64,000 nt of DNA from Candidatus Brevefilum sp. (lineage in GTDB: Bacteria; Chloroflexota; Anaerolineae; Anaerolineales; Anaerolineaceae). The position numbers and the translations under genes are program-made. Below the pieces are notes generated by a model. That model made no database searches and had not been told where the DNA came from. It worked only from the letters and a program-made list of their open reading frames with translations. The DNA lies in NCBI GenBank assembly GCA_019428905.1, contig JAHYJN010000001.1:62001-126000 (forward strand), read 5' to 3'. This document shows positions 2,248 to 64,000 of this stretch, one piece after another. The number at the start of each line of letters is the position of its first letter. The stretch's first letter is position 1.

Positions 2248-4080
2248 ATGGGCTTCTTTTCAGGCTTAGCAGCAGAAAAATATGACCGGAAGTATTCCGA
2301 CAGGAAATTACTGGAACGGATTATTGCGTACTTCAAGCAACAATCTGGGCGACTGATAATTATTGCTGTCACAATTGTTATCCGGGCGCTGATCGAAGCC
2401 TTTTCGCCAGTGATCGTCGCCCGAGGGTTAGATCAAGTGACTGAGCAACTGATCACCAACCGCTTTGTCATCATTCTCTCAGGAATTATCCTGGTCCTGG
2501 GTATTTTGAGCTGGTTTACCAACATGTTACGCCGGCGATACTCAGCCAGGACGATTGCAGAATTGATCAGGCAATTATCAACAGATGCATTCAAAGCTTC
2601 TGTCCAACAGGATCTATCATTTCACGATAACTTTGATTCGGGAAAGATCGTTTCCAGGATCACCTCTGACACGCGCGAATTCGGTCAACTGGTTACTTTG
2701 ACGACCGATGTACTGATGCAGCTGATCTCTTCAATTACGTTGATGATCATCTTGTTCCAAACTGAATGGCGTTTAGCTATCGCTGTGCTTTTGTTGGTGC
2801 CATTGTTATTCTTTTTGGTGATCCGTTATCGCCATATTGCGCGAAAAATCACCCGTGAGGGCATGCGCGCCATGGCGAATGTCAACTCCACGATCAAAGA
2901 AACGGTCAGCGGAATTGCCATTGCAAAGAACTTTCGGCAGGAAGAAGCCATCTTTGATGAATTTGATGAAGCCAACCGGACATCCTTCGAGGTAAACGTC
3001 AAACGCGGCTTTATCCTGTCTGTGGTCTTCCCCGTCTTGCGAACAGTGGGCGGTATCGCCACTGCGCTGATGGTTTATTTTGGTGCGCTCACTGTCATTG
3101 GCGGCCTGGTCACAGCAGGCGCGTGGTATTTGTTCCTGTCCACCCTCGACCAATTCCTGTTCCCGGTGATGAGTTTGTCATCTTTTTGGACCCAGGTTCA
3201 AACAGGGTTATCTGCTGCAGAACGGATCTTTGCTTTGATCGATGCGGAACACTCTGTTAAACAAATCGACTCGCTCAAGGCACACGACCTCGAAGGCCGC
3301 ATCGAAATGAAACATTTGAATTTTAGTTATACACCAGATGAACCGGTGTTAACGGATTTTTCACTGCACATCAAACCCGGTGAAACCATGGCGCTCGTTG
3401 GACATACAGGGGCAGGAAAAACATCCATCGGACGTTTGATCGCCCGGTTTTATGAATTCCAGGAAGGTGAGATCCTGATCGACGGGATGGATATCAGAAA
3501 ATATGACCTGGTTTCACTGCGCAGGCAAATGGGGATCGTTTCACAGGTACCCTTCCTATTTTCAGGTACCATCGAAGAGAACATCCGCTACGGTTGCCCA
3601 GTGTGTGACCGCGATGAGATCATCAACATCGGGATGAAAATTGGAGATGGAGAGTGGCTTGAAACCCTTCCCAATGGCCTGGATACACAGGTTGGCGAGC
3701 GCGGGTCCCAGCTTTCGATGGGTCAACGTCAGTTGGTGGCTTTAATGCGCGTTCTCATCCAAAGACCTTCCATTTTTATCCTGGATGAGGCCACAGCCAG
3801 CATCGATCCATTTACTGAGCACCAAATTGAAACGGCACTAGACCTGATCCTTTCTGAAACAACCAGTATCCTCATCGCACATCGCCTATCCACCGTGCGT
3901 TCAGCAGACCGGATTCTTGTGATGCGCATGGGAGAGATCATTGAAGAGGGGAGTCATGATGAATTGCTGTCCTTTGGGAAACATTACGCTGAACTTTACA
4001 ATACCTATTTCAGACATCAATCGCTGGAATATGTTGAACAAGCTAGAAAATTTAAACAGGCACAAACTGCGAATATTTAA
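2248..4080 (+). CDS. ABC exporter half-transporter, subunit 2 (degenerate signature)
   Basis: This 610-residue protein is the partner of the preceding half-transporter. The membrane domain covers about residues 35-330 and the ATPase domain the rest. Walker A reads GHTGAGKTS and Walker B reads IFILDEATAS with the catalytic glutamate present (E514), but the signature is LSMGQRQL instead of LSGGQ. In a head-to-tail dimer its weak signature would face the weak Walker B of subunit 1, giving one degenerate and one active ATP site, as known for heterodimeric exporters. A terminator follows directly, ending the operon. The substrate is unknown. Confidence 0.88.
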   Translation: MGFFSGLAAEKYDRKYSDRKLLERIIAYFKQQSGRLIIIAVTIVIRALIEAFSPVIVARGLDQVTEQLITNRFVIILSGIILVLGILSWFTNMLRRRYSARTIAELIRQLSTDAFKASVQQDLSFHDNFDSGKIVSRITSDTREFGQLVTLTTDVLMQLISSITLMIILFQTEWRLAIAVLLLVPLLFFLVIRYRHIARKITREGMRAMANVNSTIKETVSGIAIAKNFRQEEAIFDEFDEANRTSFEVNVKRGFILSVVFPVLRTVGGIATALMVYFGALTVIGGLVTAGAWYLFLSTLDQFLFPVMSLSSFWTQVQTGLSAAERIFALIDAEHSVKQIDSLKAHDLEGRIEMKHLNFSYTPDEPVLTDFSLHIKPGETMALVGHTGAGKTSIGRLIARFYEFQEGEILIDGMDIRKYDLVSLRRQMGIVSQVPFLFSGTIEENIRYGCPVCDRDEIINIGMKIGDGEWLETLPNGLDTQVGERGSQLSMGQRQLVALMRVLIQRPSIFILDEATASIDPFTEHQIETALDLILSETTSILIAHRLSTVRSADRILVMRMGEIIEEGSHDELLSFGKHYAELYNTYFRHQSLEYVEQARKFKQAQTANI

Positions 4081-5102: not shown

Positions 5103-6451
5103 TGTATACACCTCACACCCCCCAAGAAATTGAGGAGATGCTGAGCTTTATTGGGGTTAAATCCATCGAAGCATTGTTTGAAAAAGTTCCAGCCAAACAT
5201 CGTTTCCCGCAACTTGATCTACCTGCGGGCTTAACCGAGATGGAGGTCGCTGCAGAATTAAACGAAATCGCATCCGCCAATGCCTCAACGGATGATTTTA
5301 TTTCTTTCTTAGGCGCAGGCGCTTACAATCACTACATTCCTGCAGCGGTTGACATGATCCTCCAACGTGGTGAATTCTATACTGCGTATACCCCTTATCA
5401 GCCAGAAGTCTCCCAAGGCACATTGCAGTCCATCTTTGAGTTCCAATCACTGATGACCGAACTGACCGGGATGGATGTCAGCAATGCCTCACATTACGAT
5501 GGAGCTACAGCAGCCGCTGAAGCTGCCAATCTTGCCTACCATACCTTCCGTGGGAAAAGGAAAAAAATCCTCGTATCAAGATCGGTAAATCCCCAATATC
5601 GCGAGACGATCCGCACCTACATGAACGGAATGGAAAATGTGTCTGTTTTAGGTGATGAAATCGAAAACAGCGAGACCTTCGAATCCTTCATGGATTTGAT
5701 CGACAAGGATACGGCAGTCGTTGTCGTACAATATCCAGACTTCTTTGGCCGTATCATTGACTATACGAAGTTGGTCGAAAAAGCTCACGAGGCTGGCGCT
5801 TTGGTGACCTATGTCTTCAACCCCACCGCACTGGGACTCCTCAAACCTCCTGGGGCGTTCGATGCGGATATCGCAGTGGCAGATGGACAGCCTTTGGGCA
5901 TCCCGCTCTCCTATGGCGGCCCTTATTTAGGCATCTTCACCGTTAAGGATAAATATGTGCGCAAACTAGCCGGCAGGCTGGTTGGTGAGACTGTGGATGA
6001 AGAAGGAACACGTGCCTATGTCCTCACCCTCACTGCCCGTGAACAACACATTCGCCGAGAAAAATCCACTTCAAACATCTGCACCAACCAGGGCTTGATG
6101 GCCCTTGCAGCCACCGTTTACCTCTCCCTGCTGGGAAAATCCGGGTTTAAACAAGTAGCAAACCTGTGCTACCAGAAAGCACACTATGCAGCTGAGCAAA
6201 TTTCTAAACTTCCGGGGTTCGAACTGGCTTTCCCCGACACCCCCTTCTTCCATGAATTTGTGATCAAGACACCCAAGCCTGTTAATGAGATCAATCTCCA
6301 CCTCGAACATCACTGGATCCTGGGCGGTTATGATCTGAGCCAGGACTACCCAGAGATGGAAAACCACATGTTAATTGCAGTCACAGAAAAAATTTCCCGA
6401 GAAGATATCGACGATTTTGTAGCAGCCCTCGAGGAGGTGACCCATGACTGA
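5102..6451 (+). CDS. gcvPA: Glycine dehydrogenase (decarboxylating) subunit 1
   Basis: This 449-residue protein is the alpha half of the split P protein, the PLP-dependent glycine decarboxylase. The N-terminus (YTPHTPQEIEEMLSFIGV) and the block TAYTPYQPEVSQGTLQSIFE are family hallmarks. The start ATG overlaps the gcvH stop by one base (TAATG), and its end overlaps gcvPB by 8 bases, so translation is coupled. The PLP lysine is on the partner subunit. The split alpha/beta form is common in Gram-positive-type bacteria and Chloroflexota. Confidence 0.95.
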   Translation: MYTPHTPQEIEEMLSFIGVKSIEALFEKVPAKHRFPQLDLPAGLTEMEVAAELNEIASANASTDDFISFLGAGAYNHYIPAAVDMILQRGEFYTAYTPYQPEVSQGTLQSIFEFQSLMTELTGMDVSNASHYDGATAAAEAANLAYHTFRGKRKKILVSRSVNPQYRETIRTYMNGMENVSVLGDEIENSETFESFMDLIDKDTAVVVVQYPDFFGRIIDYTKLVEKAHEAGALVTYVFNPTALGLLKPPGAFDADIAVADGQPLGIPLSYGGPYLGIFTVKDKYVRKLAGRLVGETVDEEGTRAYVLTLTAREQHIRREKSTSNICTNQGLMALAATVYLSLLGKSGFKQVANLCYQKAHYAAEQISKLPGFELAFPDTPFFHEFVIKTPKPVNEINLHLEHHWILGGYDLSQDYPEMENHMLIAVTEKISREDIDDFVAALEEVTHD

Positions 6452-8977: not shown

Positions 8978-10411
8978 ATGCACAAACATTTATTGGTTAA
9001 ACAACCACACACACTTTTCACAATTAAGCAGTTTTTCGCACTATTGATGATGTCTGTCATGATCGGATTAAACGCTAATCTCGCGATGGCGATGGATGCT
9101 CCCCAGACAGCGGGACCCACATACATCGTTCAAAGTGGAGACACCCTCAATGAAATCGCGATCCGTTTTGGTTTGTCTACCGATGAGATCCTCTCAGCTA
9201 ATGCCATTACGGACCCGAATTCATTATTCGTTGGACAAGCAATCATCATCCCCGGATACGAGGGGATCACGGGTATCCTAACCTCTGAGATACTGCCCCT
9301 GAGCACATCATTGACCACGCTCACACGTCAATACCGCCTCAGCCAATCTGACTTGGTCATCCTGAACCGGCTGACCAGCCCTTCAGAGATGATTGCAGGT
9401 ATAGCAATCATCGTTCCCATTAACGAGTCCCAGAATCAACTGGTCCACATTCCATCGCTCAGGCCTGGCGAATCGACTCTCGAGGCAGCCATTCACACCG
9501 GAATCTCACCCTGGATGTTGGTTGAACAAAACCAAAGCAAAACAACCTGGCAATTGCTGGCTGGCGATCCATTATTTGCCAGTATCGATCCGGAATGGTG
9601 GGGAAATGGTTCACCTGAAATCGTTGACATCGGGATAAACCAGTTGCCAATTATCCAGGGAGAAACCCTGTTGATAAATGTCACATCTCCTGAACCTCTG
9701 GAACTCCGTGGTAGTTTTCTTGGTCAACCCCTGAACTTCTTTACAGACAACGGTGAAACCTACATCAGTTTGCTTGGCATCCATGCCTTGGCTGAGCCAG
9801 GCGTTTACCCCTTACTAATCCACGCTGAAAGCGAAGGTGGCGTCAGGTTGAGTTTTGAACAGCTTGTGCTACTTTCACCGGGGTTTTACGCGAACGAGTG
9901 GGTGACGATTGAAGACGAAACCTATTTGGATGCAGACAAAATTGCTGAAGAAGACGCCTATCTTAGACCCTTATTGGATCAGGTCACAGCGCAACGTTAT
10001 TGGGAGAGCCGTTTTCAATTTCCTGTGGACGAACCATGTTTCAACAGCCCATTTGGGTTACGACGCGACTATAACAGTGGATTATTGTTCTATTATCATA
10101 CTGGACTCGATTTTCGGGTGTGCGCCCAAAATTTAAACATTTATGCACCAGCAGCAGGTGTGGTTGTGGTTGCGGAGGAGTTGTTCACCAAAGGTAATGC
10201 CGTATATATCGATCACGGCTGGGGCGTGATCTCTGGTTATGCCCACTTAAGCGAAATTTTGGTCGAGGTTGGTGACTTTGTTCAGCCAGGTGACCTGATT
10301 GGCATCATAGGCGACACAGGTCGCTCAGCTGGGCCGCACCTGCACTTTGAGATTAACATATCTGGAACGCCGGTTAACCCGCAAACATGGCTTAACCAAA
10401 CGTTCCCATGA
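8978..10411 (+). CDS. Secreted LysM and M23-family metallopeptidase
   Basis: The ATG at 8978 gives about 477 residues; a TTG two codons upstream (8972) is possible. A signal peptide with a hydrophobic core (FFALLMMSVMIGLNANLAMA) is followed by a clear LysM domain (YIVQSGDTLNEIAIRFGLS, ending FVGQAIIIPG), a second weaker LysM-like repeat and a middle beta-rich region. The C-terminal domain is an M23 (LytM-type) peptidase: HTGLDF supplies the first His/Asp ligands and HLHFEI the last, with DHGWGVISGYAHLS between. It probably cuts cell-wall peptide bridges outside the cell. The 231-bp gap upstream has no obvious second gene. Confidence 0.88.
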   Translation: MHKHLLVKQPHTLFTIKQFFALLMMSVMIGLNANLAMAMDAPQTAGPTYIVQSGDTLNEIAIRFGLSTDEILSANAITDPNSLFVGQAIIIPGYEGITGILTSEILPLSTSLTTLTRQYRLSQSDLVILNRLTSPSEMIAGIAIIVPINESQNQLVHIPSLRPGESTLEAAIHTGISPWMLVEQNQSKTTWQLLAGDPLFASIDPEWWGNGSPEIVDIGINQLPIIQGETLLINVTSPEPLELRGSFLGQPLNFFTDNGETYISLLGIHALAEPGVYPLLIHAESEGGVRLSFEQLVLLSPGFYANEWVTIEDETYLDADKIAEEDAYLRPLLDQVTAQRYWESRFQFPVDEPCFNSPFGLRRDYNSGLLFYYHTGLDFRVCAQNLNIYAPAAGVVVVAEELFTKGNAVYIDHGWGVISGYAHLSEILVEVGDFVQPGDLIGIIGDTGRSAGPHLHFEINISGTPVNPQTWLNQTFP

Positions 10412-55885: not shown

Positions 55886-57772
55886 ATGTACGGATACAGT
55901 GGAAAGATATTACATATCGACTTGAATGAACGTAAGCATTGGGTCGAAGAAAAGCCGGAGGAATGGTACAAAATCTATATCGGCGGTGTTTCGATGGCCA
56001 CCCGGCTGTGTTGGGAAAATATCGAAGTGGGTTGTGATGCCTACGACCCCGGTAACCCGATTTGTTTTGCCAATGGAATCTTCGCCGGCACACCGGTGCC
56101 CGTTGGTGGCAAATACGGTCTGGCCTCAAAATCACCGCTGACAGGTGTCATCGGAGACAGCCTCTCTGGCAGCTGGTTCACGATCGCCCTTAAACGCGCC
56201 CAATGGGATGGCGTCGTTATCCATGGCGCAAGCGAGAATTGGATTCACATTCTCATCGACGATGACCGTGTGGAATACCTACCCGCAGATAAGCTGCTTG
56301 GTTTAGGAACCCATGAAACCGAAGAAAAGATTCGGGAAATCTTCGGCGATGATCAGGTTCGGTCAGCGACCATCGGACCAGCCGGTGAAAACATGGTCCG
56401 TTACGCCAATGTGACCAATGATGGCCGCCAGGCGGGACGCACCGGACATGGTTCTGTATGGGCAAGCAAAAAAATCAAAGCTGTCTCGGTGCGCGGTACC
56501 CACGGTGTTACAGTAGCGGACCCTGATTCACTGCTAAAAATGTCCTTTGATATAACCGAAGCTGCGCAGGGACCTCACACGGTAAAATACCGCGTTTATG
56601 GCACCTCAACCAACGTCCTGAACGCCAACAAACATGGCTTTTTGCCGACCAACAATTTCCGAGAAGGCACATTCGATTTTGCAGAATTGGTCAGCGGCGA
56701 ATATCTCGATGAACACCACAAAGTTAAAGTGATCGCTTGTGCTCAATGCCCGATTGCCTGCGAACAAATGTCCATGGTCAAAACAGGGCCTTATGCAGGG
56801 TCCATGACAGGGATCGAATACGAATGCCTGCAGGCAGTTTCATCGAACTGCGGCATTGGAGATATGACAGCGGCAATTCGCATGGTAGATATTTCAGACC
56901 GCAGCGGGATGGATACAATGAGTATGGGGGTTTCGATCTCATTTGCAATGGAATGTTTCGAAACTGGCGTGCTTAAGAAAGAAGATTTCAAATGCAAAAA
57001 GTATCCTGAAGGTTTTGAACCCTACTTCGGCAACGGCGAGGCAGGGGTCACCTTAGCTGAGATGATTCGCGACAAAGAAGGCATTGGTGCAATCTTAGCA
57101 GAAGGGACACGGATCGCAGCCAAGCTCATTGATGAGGAGCACAACTCAGAAACCTGGAAGTTCGCCATGAACATCAAGGGCCTGGAATGTCCTGGCTACG
57201 ATGCCAGGTCCTTAAAGACCTTTGCCATGGGGTTGGCAGTCGGCACCCGCGGCGGATGCCATAACCGCTCAGCAGCCTACGACCCAGACATCCAGGGTGA
57301 AACAAACCGATTCACGGTTGATGAAACCCGCGGTGTCGTCGCTGCACGGTCAGAAGAATATGCTGCTGTTTATGACACCCTCCCCATGTGTAAATTCATC
57401 CGTCGCTGCTTTACCGGAAAAGCCGATCGGGCTGGTGCCTGGCCGTCCATCGCCAATTTAATCAATGCTACCACCGGTTGGAACTTCGATTACGATGAAG
57501 TTGACCTGATCGGTGTCAGAGCCCATACCATTAAGAAAGCCTTCAACATCCGTGAGGGATGGAAACCCGAAGATGATGATATCCCTTATCGCTGGAAACA
57601 TGACCCGATGACCAAGGGACCAGGTGCTGGTCATGTGGTCACCGATGAAGAATTAGCTTACATGAAAGGGCTGTATTACAAAGCCAAAGGCTGGACTGAA
57701 GATGGTTACATCCCCAAACAATTGCTGATTGACCTCGGTATGGATGATGTCGCTGAAGAAATCGGTGTATAA
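55886..57772 (+). CDS. aor: Tungsten-containing aldehyde:ferredoxin oxidoreductase family protein
   Basis: This 628-residue protein has the AOR N-terminal domain (MYGYSGKILHIDLNERK; YIGGVSMATRLCWEN) and binds the pterin cofactor through ATIGPAGENMVRYANVTNDG and GRTGHGSVWASKKIKA. A [4Fe-4S] site is given by CAQCPIAC (CxxCxxxC) with a fourth Cys in TLPMCKF. Family enzymes oxidise aldehydes to acids with ferredoxin, or run in reverse. Co-operonic ferredoxin, HdrA and hydrogenase genes suggest it exchanges electrons with a bifurcating complex. The aldehyde, or possibly an aryl-CoA as in BamB, cannot be told from the sequence. An AGGAGAG ribosome site is present. Confidence 0.9.
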   Translation: MYGYSGKILHIDLNERKHWVEEKPEEWYKIYIGGVSMATRLCWENIEVGCDAYDPGNPICFANGIFAGTPVPVGGKYGLASKSPLTGVIGDSLSGSWFTIALKRAQWDGVVIHGASENWIHILIDDDRVEYLPADKLLGLGTHETEEKIREIFGDDQVRSATIGPAGENMVRYANVTNDGRQAGRTGHGSVWASKKIKAVSVRGTHGVTVADPDSLLKMSFDITEAAQGPHTVKYRVYGTSTNVLNANKHGFLPTNNFREGTFDFAELVSGEYLDEHHKVKVIACAQCPIACEQMSMVKTGPYAGSMTGIEYECLQAVSSNCGIGDMTAAIRMVDISDRSGMDTMSMGVSISFAMECFETGVLKKEDFKCKKYPEGFEPYFGNGEAGVTLAEMIRDKEGIGAILAEGTRIAAKLIDEEHNSETWKFAMNIKGLECPGYDARSLKTFAMGLAVGTRGGCHNRSAAYDPDIQGETNRFTVDETRGVVAARSEEYAAVYDTLPMCKFIRRCFTGKADRAGAWPSIANLINATTGWNFDYDEVDLIGVRAHTIKKAFNIREGWKPEDDDIPYRWKHDPMTKGPGAGHVVTDEELAYMKGLYYKAKGWTEDGYIPKQLLIDLGMDDVAEEIGV

Positions 57773-57785
57773 GGAGAAATAAATA

Positions 57786-58298
57786 ATGGTTGCTTCCACT
57801 TCAAAGTTTAAATATGTCGTATGTGATCCTGAGCTATGTATTGGCTGCCAATTGTGCGAATACATTTGTTCCTACACCAAGACGGGTGAATTCAACTCCT
57901 ATCGCAGCCGCATCCGCACCGTGCGGGTCGACGAGGTATTGATCACCGCTGTCGCCTGCCGGACCTGTGAAAATGCCCCCTGTGTGATTGCCTGTACCCG
58001 TGACGCGCTTTCACAAGACCAGGAAACGGGCATCATCCGCATCGACCCAACAAAATGCGACGGTTGTGCCTGGTGCATCGAAGCCTGTGACTTTGGCGCC
58101 ATTTCGATTAATCACCTCACAAAGCTAGCTGAATTTTGTAACCAATGTGAAGATGTCGAAGAAGGCCCCCAATGCGTCAAGATTTGTCCCAAAGATGCAC
58201 TGGAATATACGACACCGGATCAACGTGCACAACGCACCCGCCATAAACTGATCAAAACCAGCCTTGAATTCCCGCAAAAAGCAAAGGATCCTCGATGA
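57786..58298 (+). CDS. Four-cluster [4Fe-4S] ferredoxin-type electron-transfer subunit
   Basis: This 170-residue protein has four cysteine groups: CIGCQLCEYIC, CRTCENAPCVIAC, CDGCAWCIEAC and CNQCEDVEEGPQCVKIC, a CooF/HycB-like polyferredoxin. It probably carries electrons between the tungsten enzyme and HdrA, like BamC beside BamB. It starts 14 bases after the AOR stop and overlaps HdrA by 4 bases (ATGA). Confidence 0.9.
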   Translation: MVASTSKFKYVVCDPELCIGCQLCEYICSYTKTGEFNSYRSRIRTVRVDEVLITAVACRTCENAPCVIACTRDALSQDQETGIIRIDPTKCDGCAWCIEACDFGAISINHLTKLAEFCNQCEDVEEGPQCVKICPKDALEYTTPDQRAQRTRHKLIKTSLEFPQKAKDPR

Positions 58299-60823
58299 GC
58301 GATCTGCCTAACGAAACAAACAACAACGAAGAAGAATTACGGATTGGCGTCTACATCTGCCATTGCGGCAGCAATATCGCCGGTGTGATTGACCCTGAAG
58401 AGGTTGTGAAATTTGCTGAAGGGCTGCCAGATGTTGTCCGTGCCACCGATACCCTATATGCCTGCGCTGACTCAGGCCAACGCCTGATTAAAGAGGATAT
58501 CGAAAAATTTAAACTGAACCGGGTGGTCGTCTCCGCCTGCTCAGTCCGCATGCACGAACCAACCTTTCGCGGGGCTGTTGCTGAAGCAGGGTTAAATCCC
58601 TTCTTGATGGAAATGGCGAATATTCGCGAGCAATGCACCTGGGCCCACGGTCACGACCGTGAAGGCGCCTTGCAGAAATCGATGGACCTGACCGCTGCGG
58701 CAGTCGCTAAAACCCGCTTCCTGACCACGTTGGACATGATTGATGTCCCAGTAACCAAAAAGGCTTTGGTCATTGGCGGTGGGGTAGCAGGTATCACGGC
58801 TTCATTAGACTTAGCCGAACAAGGCATTGAAACAATCCTGGTTGAAAAGGAACCGACGATTGGGGGGGTGATGTCACAGCTCAACAAGACCTTCCCTACC
58901 ATGGACTGTAGCATATGAATACTCGCACCCAAAATGGTTGACGCGGCGCGTCAACCGAAAATTGATGTGCGAACTTACACCGAAGTTGAATCAGTTGAAG
59001 GCTTCGTCGGAAATTTCAAGGTCACCCTGCGAGAAAAAGCCAAGCATGTCCTGGCTGACCGCTGTAATGGCTGTGGCGATTGTGCCCGCGTCTGCCCGAT
59101 TGAGGTTCCTAATTATTACGAAATGAACCTGGCACCCCGTAAAGCCGTTTATATTCCAATGAGCCAATCGGTGCCCCTGGTTTACACTGTTGATCTTGAT
59201 GCTTGCATCCATTGTTATAAATGCGTTGAAGCCTGCGGTCCCCTGAAAGCGATCGATTTTAGCCAGGAGGATAAATACGTTCAAGAAGATATCGGCGCGA
59301 TCGTCGTCGCCACCGGTTTTGGGCACTTCGACCCGAGCGTGATGGAAGAATACGGCTATGGCCGCTTTCCGAATGTGATCACCTCCATGGAAATGGAACG
59401 CCTGAACAACTCTGCGGGTCTAACTGCTGGCAATCTCATCCGTCCCAGCGACCGCAAAAACCCACAGAAATTAGCGTTTATTAATTGCGTTGGATCACGT
59501 GATAAACGCTATAACCCTGGGTGTTCAAATTTCTGCTGCATGTACTCGATCAAAAACGCCGTTTTGCTCAAACAAATGTACCCAAATGTGGATATCACCA
59601 TTTACTATATGGATATTCGAACGCCTTCTAAAGGATACGAAGAGTTCTACGACCGGGCCAGGGAAATGGGCATTCACTTCGTCCAAGGACGCCCAAGCTT
59701 AATCACAGAGGATGAAGAAACCCACAACTTGTTTGTCCATTCAGAGGATATCAGCCTCGGGCGAGTGATCGAAAAAGAATATGACATGGTCATGCTCAAC
59801 CAGGCAGCTGTTCCGCAACCGGATCAAAATCACATGAGTTCGGTGTTGAATGTTGTTCAAAGCCCGGGTGGATGGTTCATGGAATACCACCCCAAACTGC
59901 GCCCAATCGACAGTCCAACCGATGGCATTTTCTTTGCCGGTGCCTGCCAGGGGCCGAAAGACATCCCTGCCAGTGTCGCTGCCGGTTCAGCCGCCGCCTC
60001 TCGCGCCAGCCGCATCCTGCACTCGGAAAAATGGGAGATTGAACCGATCGTTGCCGTTGTTTGGCCCGATCGTTGTTCTGCCACAACCAAAGGTCGTGCC
60101 TGCGGCTTGTGCGTCAAAGCCTGCCCCTATGGCGCGGTTGTGATTGATGGGGATAAAGCCGCCGAGATCATCACCGCTAAATGCCACGGCTGCGGCGGAT
60201 GCGTTGCTGAATGCCCTGAGGATGCCATCACACAAATGCACTACACGGACGCGCAAATTCTCTCTCAAATCCGTGCATTATTAGCTGATAAACCTGAGGA
60301 AAAGATCCTCGCCTTCCGCTGCCAATGGTGTTCTTACGGCGGCGCGGACCTGGCGGGCACCAGCCACTTTGAATACACCGCAAATGAGCGTGGATTACGC
60401 GTCATGTGCTCAGCTCGCATGGACTCGGATTTCATCTACGAAGCCTATCGGCTGGGTGCCGGTGCCGTATTGTACTCCGGCTGCCACCCTCAGGACTGCC
60501 ACTATATTACCGGACAGAAGGTCGGGGCCAAACGCGCTGACCGCTTGAAGAAGATGTTTGAGCGCATGAATATGACCGATGGACGCTTCAGGGTGGAGTG
60601 GATCAGTGCAGCCGAAGGTGATAAATATGCTCGTGTTCTGAATGAGATGCAAATGACTCTGGATAATATGTCTCCTGAAGAGCTGCGTGATGAAATTGAG
60701 CGCCTCAAACCTGACATGGAAAAACGCTTGAAGCGCTTCCCGGGTGTTCCGGGTGTGTCAGAAGCGATGGACTATTCCGACACCCTCGTTGATGCGATCC
60801 TCAAAGCGAAGGAGACCTCATGA
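58295..60823 (+). CDS. hdrA: HdrA-MvhD fusion, predicted selenoprotein (UGA at codon 208)
   Basis: Read through one TGA, this frame gives 842 residues. The N-terminal domain (GVYICHCGSNIAGVID) is followed by an FAD-binding motif (VIGGGVAGITASLDLAE), [27 protein letters not shown], inserted ferredoxin motifs (CNGCGDCARVCP, CIHCYKCVEAC), CVGSRDKRYNPGCSNFCC, a C-terminal ferredoxin pair (CGLCVKACP, CHGCGGCVAECP) and an MvhD-like [2Fe-2S] domain (FRCQWCSYGG, SGCHPQDCHY). HdrA is the FAD electron-bifurcating subunit of heterodisulfide reductase. The TGA (58916-58918) stands where a conserved Cys/Sec occurs in HdrA, both halves share one frame, and a SECIS-like hairpin follows. A simple null mutation is less likely. 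Confidence 0.88.
58916..58956 (+). promoter_or_regulatory. Selenocysteine UGA codon and SECIS-like hairpin
   Basis: The in-frame TGA is at 58916-58918. GGTTGACGC (58936-58944) pairs perfectly with GCGTCAACC (58948-58956), leaving a GGC apical loop. The stem base is 17 bases after the TGA, near the spacing of bacterial SECIS elements read by SelB. All bases are also coding. Confidence 0.8.
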
Positions 60824-61776
60824 GCCATCCTGCTGCTGTTCGAACCTTTGCAGATGAAGTCAAAGCCATCCCGGGTGGTGAACACCTGGAGCTGTGCTAT
60901 TCCTGCGGCACGTGTGTTAGTAAATGCATGATCCAACAAAAAGTTGAGCCGGATTATAACCCCCGCCGCCTGCTGCGCATGGTGATGATGGACATGAAAG
61001 AGGAAGCCTTCGAAAGCCCAACCACCTGGATGTGCTCAGAATGCGACCTGTGCTACCAGGCCTGCCCGCAAGAAATCCATATTTCACAAGTGATCGCTGC
61101 TGTCAAACAATTGGCCGTAGATGCCGGGTACACCTCGCCTTTGACGCCTGTCCAGGTAGACGAAGCGCTATGTTCCGGCTGTGGGATCTGTTCGATGGTC
61201 TGCCCATATCAAGCGCCTTCGCTATTTGAAAAAGTAGTCGATGGTGAAATAGATCGGTTTGCCCAGGTTGACTCGAACAAATGCATGGGCTGCGGCACCT
61301 GTGTGGGCGCCTGCCCGCTCGGCGCAATTTCGCGCGAAGGCGTCAGCAACTCAGAAATTCAGTCCCAAATCCCCTCCCCAGATCAGACCATCCCGGATAT
61401 TATCACCTTCGTCTGCGATTGGTCGCTGCGGGAAGGTGCTGATGTTGAATTATTAGAAAGTTACCCCGCCGACCAGGTAAATGTGGTTCACATCCCCTGT
61501 ACGGGACGGATCGATCCGCAGCACGCGTTGATGGCCCTCGATTCCGGCGTGAAGGGCGTCTTGGTCTGCGGCTGCAAACCCGGTGAATGCCATTTCAAAC
61601 GCGGTAACCATGTGGCGAAATGCAAACTGGGCTTGTTGGATACCATGTTCAAACAAATCCAATCGCCCCACAAAGAAATCCGCTTTGTTCAAATTGGCAC
61701 GCAGGAGCGAGGTCGCATCCGCCACGAAATTGACGAAATATTAACCGCAGTTAGCCCTGCAAAGGAGGCGAAATAA
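60820..61776 (+). CDS. HdrC-ferredoxin-MvhD fusion protein
   Basis: This 318-residue protein begins with an HdrC-like pair of [4Fe-4S] motifs (CYSCGTCVSKC, CSECDLCYQAC), then two ferredoxin motifs (CSGCGICSMVCP, CMGCGTCVGACP), and ends with an MvhD-like [2Fe-2S] domain (FVCDWSLREG, PCTGRID, CGCKPGECHF). It would wire the hydrogenase to HdrA. It overlaps hdrA by 4 bases and abuts the small-subunit gene. With the MvhD domain on HdrA, the operon encodes two MvhD-like modules. Confidence 0.88.
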   Translation: MSHPAAVRTFADEVKAIPGGEHLELCYSCGTCVSKCMIQQKVEPDYNPRRLLRMVMMDMKEEAFESPTTWMCSECDLCYQACPQEIHISQVIAAVKQLAVDAGYTSPLTPVQVDEALCSGCGICSMVCPYQAPSLFEKVVDGEIDRFAQVDSNKCMGCGTCVGACPLGAISREGVSNSEIQSQIPSPDQTIPDIITFVCDWSLREGADVELLESYPADQVNVVHIPCTGRIDPQHALMALDSGVKGVLVCGCKPGECHFKRGNHVAKCKLGLLDTMFKQIQSPHKEIRFVQIGTQERGRIRHEIDEILTAVSPAKEAK

Positions 61777-62750
61777 TGGCCGCAGAAGCAAAACCGAAAC
61801 TCGCCTTTTACTGGGCTGGCAGCTGCGGAGGGTGTGAAATCACCATCACGGAGCTGGGCATGCGCCTGGTCGATGTCTCCGAACTGGCTGACATCGTCTT
61901 CTGGCCAGCGGCAATGGACTTCAAGTACGACGATGTCCGGGGTTTGGCTGACCAGGAAATTGACCTGTGTTTCTTCAATGGCGCGATTCGCAATGCTGAA
62001 AACGAAGAGTTTGCCCACCTGCTGCGCCGGAAATCAAAAATCATGGTCGCCTTTGGCTCCTGTTCCCACCTGGGCGGCATCCCGGGGCTGGCCAATATGT
62101 ACGACATCGAAGCCTTATGCGAGCGGGTGTTTGACACCTCACCCTCCCTGGATAACAGTCGTGGCATCCGGCCGCAAACGATCACCAAAGTGCCTGAAGG
62201 TGAGATCAAACTCCCCCCCCTGCATCAATCCGTCAAACATTTGGCGGAGATCACGGACGTTGATTACTTCATGCCCGGCTGCCCGCCAGTGGTTGACCAG
62301 GTTTGGAAGGTGTTCCAGGCTGCCCTCAACGGGGAGCTGCCCCCGAAGGGCTCGGTGATCGGTGCTGATGAGAAAAGTGTGTGCGATGTATGCCCCCGTG
62401 AAAAGGGTGAACCTGGTTTCAGGATCTCTGAATTCAAACGTCCGCACGAAGTTGACCTTGACCCAGATAAGTGTTTCCTAACCCAGGGCGTCATTTGCTG
62501 CGGACCCGTGACCCGGGCTGGATGCGGCACACCCTGCTTGAATGGGAATATGCCCTGTCGCGGCTGTTATGGTCCCGCCGAAGGTATTATCGACCAAGGG
62601 GCAAAACTTGCCAGCTTTATCGGTGGGCTGATCGACACAGATGACCCAGAGAAATTGCAATCTATCTTAGATTCGATTGTTGACCCAGCGGGCACCTTCT
62701 ACCGCTTCGGGTTAGCCCATTCGATTATAAGCAAGATGAAATATGAGTAA
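61776..62750 (+). CDS. mvhG: F420-non-reducing-type [NiFe] hydrogenase small subunit (MvhG-like)
   Basis: This 324-residue small subunit has the proximal-cluster motif WAGSCGGCEITITELG, then FGSCSHLGGIPG and MPGCPPVVDQVW, and a C-terminal cysteine-rich part (CCGPVTRAGCGTPC, CRGCYGPAEG) for further clusters. It lacks a Tat signal, so it is cytoplasmic, as in group 3c Mvh hydrogenases. Its start overlaps the upstream stop by one base. The large subunit starts 10 bases after its stop. Confidence 0.92.
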   Translation: MAAEAKPKLAFYWAGSCGGCEITITELGMRLVDVSELADIVFWPAAMDFKYDDVRGLADQEIDLCFFNGAIRNAENEEFAHLLRRKSKIMVAFGSCSHLGGIPGLANMYDIEALCERVFDTSPSLDNSRGIRPQTITKVPEGEIKLPPLHQSVKHLAEITDVDYFMPGCPPVVDQVWKVFQAALNGELPPKGSVIGADEKSVCDVCPREKGEPGFRISEFKRPHEVDLDPDKCFLTQGVICCGPVTRAGCGTPCLNGNMPCRGCYGPAEGIIDQGAKLASFIGGLIDTDDPEKLQSILDSIVDPAGTFYRFGLAHSIISKMKYE

Positions 62751-62760
62751 GGAAACCTTA

Positions 62761-64000
62761 ATGAATCAAAAGATCAGTATCGATCCCATCACACGCTTGG
62801 AAGGACATGGCCGGATCGATTTATTCCTGGATGAGGACGGTGGTTTGTCAAACGCCTATCTGATCGTCCCGGAATTGCGCGGCTTTGAAAAATTTTGCGA
62901 GGGGCGCCCGGTAGAGGAGATGCCTCGCATCACCCAGCGTATCTGCGGCGTGTGCCCGATCGCCCATCATATGGCTGCCGCTAAAGCAGGTGATGCCGTC
63001 TATCATGTTGAAATCCCACCCACAGCCAAGAAATTGCGCGAGCTGATGTATTCTGCCTTTTTCGTCGCTGACCATGCCACCCACTTCTACATTTTAGGCG
63101 GTCCAGACTTCGTTGTGGGACCTGACGCGCCCAAAGCGGACCGCAACATCCTCGGTGTTGTGCGCAAGGTGGGCAAGGAATTTGGCGCGAAAGTCATGCA
63201 GCTGCTCAAAGACAACCACGAGATCACAGCCATGATCGGCGGCCGCTATATTCACTCCGTCAGCGCCATCGTGGGGGGCGTCAGCAAACCGATCACCGAA
63301 GCAGACCGCCTGGCGATCCTTGAACGGTCACTACGCTCGGTGGAATTCGCTAAAGAGTCCCTGGCTTTATTTGATGATATCGTCTTGGGAAATCCCGCCT
63401 ATGTAGAGATGATCACCAGCGATGCTTATGCACATCAAACCTATTACATGGGCCTGGTGGATGAGAACAACCATGTCAATTTTTACGATGGCAAAGTGCG
63501 GGTTGTCTCACCCAAAGGCAAAGAATTGGTCAAATACGGACCCGATGAATACCTGGATGTGATCGCAGAACACATCGAACCCTGGACCTACCTCAAATTC
63601 CCCTATCTCAAACAGATCGGCTGGAAAGGGTTCGTGGACGGTGAGGACAGCGGCGTCTATCGCGCCTCTCCGCTTTCCCGCTTGAACGCAGCCGATGGTA
63701 TGGCGACACCAGAAGCACAGAAAATGTATGAGCGGTTCTTTGACACCCTGGGTGGCAAACCGGTCCACTCAACACTCGCCACCCATTGGGCACGGCTGAT
63801 TGAAATTTTATATGCAGCAGAGCGCGCCGTAGAACTGGCATCCGATGAAACCATCACGGATCCCCATGTTCATACCATCCCCACCGAAACCCCAACCGAG
63901 GGCATTGCCATTGTTGAAGCCCCACGCGGCACCCTCACCCATCATTACAAAACGGATGCGCGCGGGCTGATCCAGGCGGTCAACCTGATCGTTGGCACGA
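62761..64000 (+). CDS. mvhA: [NiFe] hydrogenase large subunit (MvhA-like), truncated by window end
   Basis: The ATG at 62761 opens a frame that runs to the last base (413 residues seen). [15 protein letters not shown] and the first nickel-binding motif [11 protein letters not shown] are intact, and [19 protein letters not shown] is typical of MvhA/group 3 large subunits. The second nickel motif (DPCxxC) would lie beyond the window. With MvhG it should split or evolve H2 in the cytoplasm and pass electrons to the HdrC/MvhD fusion. Confidence 0.93.

Follow-up and report, generated by a model that had tools for sequence, protein, structure and literature searches.

Selenocysteine (Sec) in bacterial HdrA was reported in 2006, when 16 such proteins were counted and hdrA-frhD-frhG-frhA operons were discussed (PMC1794560; this and the other papers are cited here from excerpts). 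Since then, a Sec-containing HdrA1 has been described together with an Mvh hydrogenase in Desulfobacterium autotrophicum (PMC2702500), Sec-HdrA and BamE have been named along with their selenocysteine insertion sequence (SECIS) elements, BamE being a predicted selenoprotein in Desulfococcus multivorans (PMC5109826), and HdrA figures among the CxxU selenoprotein families of a 2026 review (PMC13188914). In methanogens, MvhD carries electrons from the hydrogenase to the bifurcating flavin of HdrA (PMC6019823), and the annotation of HdrA as split genes has been noted there too (PMC12054007). Within the Chloroflexota, Sec has been reported in formate dehydrogenases (PMC5736913, PMC4959059). Here we describe a predicted Sec-containing HdrA-MvhD of Candidatus Brevefilum sp. 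(Chloroflexota, Anaerolineae), found in a stretch of 64,000 nucleotides (contig JAHYJN010000001.1, positions 62,001 to 126,000; hereafter the window) that is part of a draft genome of 3.04 Mb in 149 contigs, 92% complete. An earlier note, made from the letters of this DNA, had treated Sec in a bacterial HdrA as a surprise, which it is not, having long been known (PMC1794560, PMC2702500, PMC5109826). Our literature search for Sec-HdrA in Chloroflexota covered open papers, seen as excerpts, and found no description of this case in them. The gene and its two critical elements are the following (coordinates of the window).

58295..60823, + strand: hdrA-mvhD fusion gene, read through one TGA, 842 amino acids (aa) plus stop.
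58916..58918, + strand: TGA codon 208, predicted Sec at a conserved Cys (from homologue codons and the Cys of the solved HdrA 5odc).
58936..58956, + strand: SECIS-type hairpin of 9 bp with a GGC loop, 17 nt after the TGA (from folding, invariant synonymous codons and core identity).

Two open reading frames (ORFs), 58295-58918 (207 aa) and 58934-60823, share the same frame and are parted by the TGA at 58916-58918. That they join into a normal HdrA, as the earlier note proposed, is borne out by readthrough, which gives a product with U208 and a frame without any other break. The protein matches the HdrA of the methanogen structure 5odc with 800 bits over residues 13-665, and the same motif is found there with a Cys opposite the TGA. 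A FlpD (MvhD) domain is fused behind it (residues 671-792), making the protein longer than a plain HdrA, and on the full-length HdrA similarity plus the FlpD domain we have classified it as an HdrA-MvhD fusion. In the FAD-binding part, a CxxC motif appears here as C205-S-I-U208, with the Sec site in the position of its second Cys. The placing of the TGA at a conserved Cys of HdrA was likewise correct, judging from 5odc and from the TGA or TGC/TGT codons of the homologues.

The codon at this site was read across relatives at several distances. A search of 61 related genomes, from which 30 loci were taken, gave TGA in 15, TGC or TGT in 14 and one locus outside the pattern (L036). The 15 TGA loci are the close homologues (at least 76% identity) that span the site, i.e., the window's own copy and 14 others; a further close-homologue fragment (G014:C55) starts past it. 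In named genomes, the best 80 of 154 loci contained 52 TGA, 29 TGC/TGT and one codon masked by N (L082), two of these loci (L073 and L087) having two motifs each. Among the same best 80, 50 of the 51 Chloroflexota loci had TGA, the remaining one being the masked L082, and the two TGA from outside the phylum belonged to an actinomycete (L081) and to one of the two copies of a Bathyarchaeon (L087). The isolates Pelolinea submarina (L084) and Ornatilinea apprima (L070) have TGA at the site. As a separate observation, in the public contig of L082 (L082:2680-2750) two Ns replace the TGA stretch, as if masked or unresolved, and the hairpin core is intact after them.

The class-wide search covered 298 genomes, with at most three candidates scored in each. 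A TGA was contained in 27 of the 33 matches with E = 0; the other six, all from family f64 and with 56-58% identity, contained none. When the site itself was read, all 27 had TGA and three of the six f64 matches had TGC. Among further class-wide loci TGA stood at the site in 24 of 27; of the matches weaker than E = 0, only a minor part of the list was read. A TGA within a match need not mean the site, as illustrated by G085, which has one TGA inside its match and TGC at the site (L225). The pattern used for the tally permitted any stop, Cys, Ser or Gly, and only TGA, TGC and TGT were seen, with four loci not fitting (L036, L082, L223 and L224). The alignment of HdrA homologues at codon 208, suggested earlier as a check, has returned TGA or TGC/TGT there. 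These data bear directly on the possibility that the TGA is a sequencing error or belongs to a pseudogene. A TGC or TGT damaged into TGA requires one base, but the same TGA appears in 14 other close-family genomes, in those 24 of 27 further loci and in two isolates, and the window's hdrA frame has no second break. The recurrence in independent genomes refutes this explanation, which we consider scarcely credible and have rejected.

The hairpin at 58936-58956 reads GGTTGACGC-GGC-GCGTCAACC, a perfect 9-bp stem with a 3-base loop 17 bases past the TGA, exactly as the earlier note had it, and its spacing was judged against the range usual for bacterial SECIS elements. Perfect hairpins of at least 9 bp with loops of 3-8 bases number 15 in the 64 kb (overlapping starts counted apart), and the chance that such a hairpin begins 15-38 nt past any given TGA is about 0.006. 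The stretch folds with -15.0 kcal/mol (z = -2.4; 4 of 200 shuffles as good). Alone, the fold and the chance estimate at this locus are only moderate, suggestive evidence; it is the comparative evidence, rather than the folding at this locus, that settles the case for a SECIS.

A way to look at this hairpin independently of its folding is to ask which codons are free to change. We have aligned by codon the 52 Sec loci left of 65 (without L087, L081 and the duplicate L153) once copies identical around the site were dropped; near-identical species pairs stay in this set, which affects all codons alike. Degenerate codons whose amino acid was at least 90% conserved were scored (n = 492). Only five of the 492 had no synonymous change in 52/52 loci, GTT GAC GCG GCG CGT, and these are exactly the codons of the hairpin; the codons immediately upstream (ILAPK) vary. 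Of 90 loci, comprising 61 distinct 51-mers, 86 share one and the same 18-nt hairpin core, the four exceptions being L169 and L172 with a GTC loop (Ala to Ser), L081 with a GGG loop and L176 with a changed base in the lower stem. In the f64 orthologues with Cys (L186, L187 and L189, all TGC) the core is gone. The hairpin downstream of the TGA is maintained by selection, and the family provides a clean case of a SECIS-type hairpin within a coding region, with frozen synonymous sites and a Cys sister lineage as a natural control.

Two polypeptides could also arise at this locus if translation stopped at the TGA and restarted at the ATG at 58934, which is in the same frame and 15 bases past it; the result would be a split HdrA, possibly switched by selenium supply, and split hdrA genes do exist in other bacteria (PMC2702500, PMC1794560, both as excerpts). 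Against this, the cut would fall within the FAD-binding part, with loss of one residue of the CxxC that is Cys in homologues, synonymous change is absent from the hairpin codons that follow, and among the loci fitting the pattern no stop other than TGA appears at the site although the tally allowed any. We regard such a split as very unlikely and have rejected it.

The machinery for Sec insertion, whose presence the earlier note had proposed to check, is complete in the genome: a tRNA-Sec (67.8 bits) with anticodon TCA (ARAGORN), selA (549.9 bits), selB (354.1 bits) and two selD genes over the cut-off (398.3 and 344.1 bits), the latter with an in-frame TGA of its own followed by 50 nt that fold with -17.9 kcal/mol (a value without shuffle control). 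The tRNA-Sec family model also matches tRNA-Ser (one match over the cut-off in this genome is a tRNA-Ser, and the model exceeds the cut-off in 5 of 14 controls), and the call is therefore based on the high score together with the TCA anticodon. The 15 TGA-HdrA genomes of the relatives search, own genome included, have tRNA-Sec with at least 63 bits (15/15) and, over the cut-offs, selA (15/15), selD (15/15) and selB (14/15), the exception, G003, with no selB over the cut-off, being a genome 75% complete. On a side note, the second selD of the genome, at G000:C24:10641-11567, is located inside a 751-aa frame without TGA, and similarly long selD frames are seen in G009-G012, G019 and G030; the SelD in this frame may be fused to another domain.

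A readthrough frame cannot by itself reveal the residue inserted, and the TGA could in principle be read as an ordinary amino acid, without selenium, through a changed code or near-cognate suppression. Yet TGA is also the normal stop of the hdrA-mvhD gene (codon 843), the TGA at 58916-58918 is the only one in the window, on both strands, with at least 150 open codons on each side, and a full Sec gene set accompanies the conserved hairpin. We hold this reading to be even less probable than a split gene and have rejected it as well. The features that mark a bacterial selenoprotein gene are present: a TGA where homologues have Cys, a hairpin downstream and, in the genome, tRNA-Sec with selA, selB and selD. 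The central claim of the earlier note, that HdrA is a predicted selenoprotein with its own SECIS hairpin, is supported by the machinery, the homologue codons and the frozen hairpin codons. From sequence, insertion of Sec at UGA 208 in the cell is very likely, and a Sec-containing HdrA-MvhD, with HdrA as the electron hub, is in our view highly probable.

A second group of HdrA proteins in the same class repeats the arrangement. Among 20 stretches around the site from more distant class-wide matches, each listed with one TGA, 17 had TGA at the site, one had TGC (L225) and two fell outside the pattern (L223 and L224). The 17 (L207-L222 and L226) make up a second Sec-HdrA-MvhD group of Anaerolineae, found alongside the first in four genomes (G068, G120, G135 and G147). 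Their hairpin is GGATGTC-GGTC-GACATCC or GGATGCC-GGTC-GGCATCC, so that one pair varies among the 16 distinct rows (U-A in nine, C-G in six, U-G in one), linking a Val/Ala codon (Ser in L221) with a synonymous base of an Arg codon. Overall, 99.1% of the cells are paired, with at most 56% in slid controls, and the covariation score was reached by 1 of 500 shuffles; L221 breaks one further pair. In a rapid maximum-likelihood analysis of 117 HdrA rows, made without the Sec-HdrA of Deltaproteobacteria and Clostridia and without this second paralogue group, the 70 Anaerolineae Sec rows grouped together (Shimodaira-Hasegawa-like approximate likelihood ratio test 94). The three f64 Cys rows were sister to this group, and L081 lay beyond it. 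On this tree Sec at the HdrA site needs at least three changes, which may be gains or losses.

Around hdrA-mvhD, the window contains the following genes.

55886..57772, + strand: tungsten aldehyde:ferredoxin oxidoreductase (AOR) family protein, large subunit (AFOR_C 347.6 bits, AFOR_N 220.3 bits).
57786..58298, + strand: 4Fe-4S protein like the small subunits of AOR (9mqx_E 91.7 bits, 8c0z_C 72.9, 6x6u_B 58.9).
60820..61776, + strand: HdrC-like protein with a fused MvhD domain (TIGR03290 70.1 bits, cut-off 160; FlpD 88.1 bits).
61776..62750, + strand: VhuG/MvhG-like hydrogenase small subunit (NF045875 204.1 bits, cut-off 450; Oxidored_q6 71 bits).
62743..64000, running on to 64227 past the window, + strand: VhuA/MvhA-like NiFe hydrogenase large subunit (NF041785 368.6 bits for the window part only, cut-off 800).

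The full VhuA-like ORF, seen in L153, has 494 aa and a C-terminal DPCLGC with Cys rather than Sec, and a polyferredoxin gene follows downstream, past the window end. The earlier note had spoken of an HdrA beside a tungsten AOR; the AOR neighbour is real, but the HdrA is not isolated with it and belongs rather to an AOR-HdrA-hydrogenase cluster. Upstream, the AOR and its Fe-S partner are the stable element. In the close family they directly precede HdrA in 14 of 15 loci, the window's included, and in the set L037-L088 in 47 of 52. The five of this set without them are contig ends (L037, L061 and L073), the Bathyarchaeon L087, and L085, with none within 6 kb. Among the class loci the pair is present in 23 of 27 (L166 and L170 have none within 1.5 kb, and L168 and L188 are contig ends). 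Of the same 52 loci L037-L088, 14 continue downstream with a VhuG-like gene. L038, L070 and L084 have instead an HdrC-like protein, a separate MvhD, two Fe-S proteins and a protein of FAD/NAD-binding type, the families in L038, the only one of the three scanned, being AsrA/ShyB-like and AsrB/HydG-like; this module is presumably akin to FlxABCD-HdrABC. As for the actinomycete L081 (Actinomycetes metagenome-assembled genome CSMAG_2450), it has the same order of AOR, Fe-S protein and Sec-HdrA with nearly the same core, and its genome contains a tRNA-Sec (78.1 bits, TCA); after HdrA come an HdrC-like ORF (identified by eye) and an HdrB (TIGR03288 307.6 bits, cut-off 345.15; CCG domains).

By analogy with the methanogen system, the conserved part would be a core of AOR and HdrA whose redox partner can be exchanged. 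Tentatively, we suggest a modular, aldehyde-linked bifurcating machine of Anaerolineae, in which AOR, its Fe-S subunit and the Sec-HdrA-MvhD hub might accept as plug-in a NiFe hydrogenase, a Flx/Asr-like NAD(P)H module or HdrCB, with Sec at the CxxU in most sampled lineages and Cys in one (f64). The core is present, with exchangeable neighbours, in most Anaerolineae loci read, and it is this setting that is less described; the open papers searched, seen as excerpts, held no description of such a modular machine. It is the part most worth the attention of specialists, and the swapped neighbours provide a testable idea of how fermenters handle aldehyde electrons. Gene callers usually stop at TGA, and in this common group of anaerobes the central electron carrier has therefore probably been annotated as two fragments.

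Several observations weigh against parts of this interpretation. No Rfam SECIS family matched at 58700-59200 with E up to 10 (Rfam's holdings of SECIS were not checked), the single match over the hairpin site being a chance one to a snoRNA. In orthologues where residue 220 is His instead of Gln, the stem is reduced to 6 bp with a mismatch below; the longest stem is 6 in 36 of 77 Sec rows and reaches 10-11 in 3 of 45 Cys rows, and stem length by itself does not part Sec from Cys rows. The orthologue hairpin offers no covariation because it hardly varies. In the second group covariation is confined to one of the seven pairs, and of the five measures two did not exceed shuffles (pairs changed on both sides, 440/500; pair types, 493/500) because a single pair varies. 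SelA is over the cut-off in 47 of the 61 genomes, including relatives without Sec-HdrA, so the co-occurrence of the machinery is necessary and not specific, as expected if it serves other selenoproteins too, SelD among them. The HdrA2 profile NF040770 gives 1027.9 bits (1-775 of 777), under its curated cut-off of 1100, and for this reason the protein is not filed as HdrA2 and the strict label was dropped. The HdrC, VhuA and VhuG scores are also below curated cut-offs; the strict VhuA and VhuG labels were dropped on these figures (368.6/800 and 204.1/450) and the hydrogenase is called only Vhu-like. No HdrB was found among the neighbour genes scanned at this locus. An AlphaFold model of HdrA from 15 sequences (mean predicted local distance difference test 68, below 50 at residues 188-212) is too unreliable at the Sec loop to show the environment of the Sec.

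Taking these points together with the evidence for a Sec-containing HdrA-MvhD, we propose that the cell would use its own tRNA-Sec and SelB to insert Sec at UGA 208, with the in-frame hairpin recruiting them, and that Sec would take the place of the second Cys of the CxxC in the FAD-binding part. A cytoplasmic complex may then have HdrA-MvhD as its flavin electron hub, and the partners would be encoded by the adjoining genes: the tungsten AOR with its ferredoxin-like small subunit, HdrC-MvhD, the Vhu/Mvh-like NiFe hydrogenase and the polyferredoxin. Most probably, flavin-based bifurcation or confurcation would link the oxidation of aldehydes (or the reduction of acids) with H2 and ferredoxin. 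That such a complex forms, bifurcates and does so in a given direction appears to us about an even proposition, perhaps slightly better.

An archaeal case appeared among the named genomes. Candidatus Bathyarchaeota archaeon DYS_1 (JAOZHZ010000020.1, L087:3146-13542) has a compact archaeal Sec island, with an HdrA-MvhD containing two in-frame TGAs (CSI-U at 3779-3781 and a CNW-U site of MvhD at 5189-5191), a tandem Cys copy of HdrA, a tRNA-Sec (9684-9768), SepSecS (478.7 bits) and an ORF of 732 aa which, judged by eye, resembles a fusion of PSTK and SelB. Archaeal SECIS elements were sought here through Rfam only, with chance matches as the result. SepSecS was over the cut-off in 1 of the 24 Bathyarchaeota genomes searched, which account for 24 of the 28 Bathyarchaeota loci. 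Sec in Bathyarchaeota has already been mentioned (PMC9499178), and in the excerpts of a 2026 review the list of Sec-using archaea does not name them (PMC13188914).

Compared with the methanogen HdrABC-MvhAGD (5odc), the cluster shares relatives of HdrA, MvhD, MvhG and MvhA and a polyferredoxin; it differs in that HdrB is missing from the scanned neighbours, AOR is added, and 5odc has Cys at the Sec site. With respect to FlxABCD-HdrABC, the window has a NiFe hydrogenase in the downstream place and AOR upstream. The bacterial Sec-HdrA of Syntrophobacter, Syntrophus, Moorella, Carboxydothermus and others are likewise found in anaerobes, some near hydrogenase-type genes; in the excerpts of that report they belong to Deltaproteobacteria and Clostridia, whereas here Sec occurs commonly throughout one HdrA-MvhD lineage of Anaerolineae, mostly beside AOR (PMC1794560). 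Desulfobacterium autotrophicum, with its Sec-HdrA1-MvhA2DG, also has Sec-HdrA clustered with a cytoplasmic Mvh-type hydrogenase, but its HdrA and MvhD are encoded separately, and Sec is reported for the hydrogenase and MvhD proteins as well, while in our cluster it was seen only in HdrA (PMC2702500). The class II benzoyl-CoA reductase BamBCDEFGHI joins, as here, a tungsten enzyme of the AOR family with HdrA-like subunits (PMC13328260). Our AOR is far closer to aldehyde oxidoreductases (best PDB match 1aor, 333.8 bits, versus 158.5 for BamB, 4z3w), for which reason we have discarded membership in that class, and a hydrogenase is attached. Since bacterial Sec-HdrA has been known since 2006, the locus is a well-supported new case of a described kind of selenoprotein and not a new kind.

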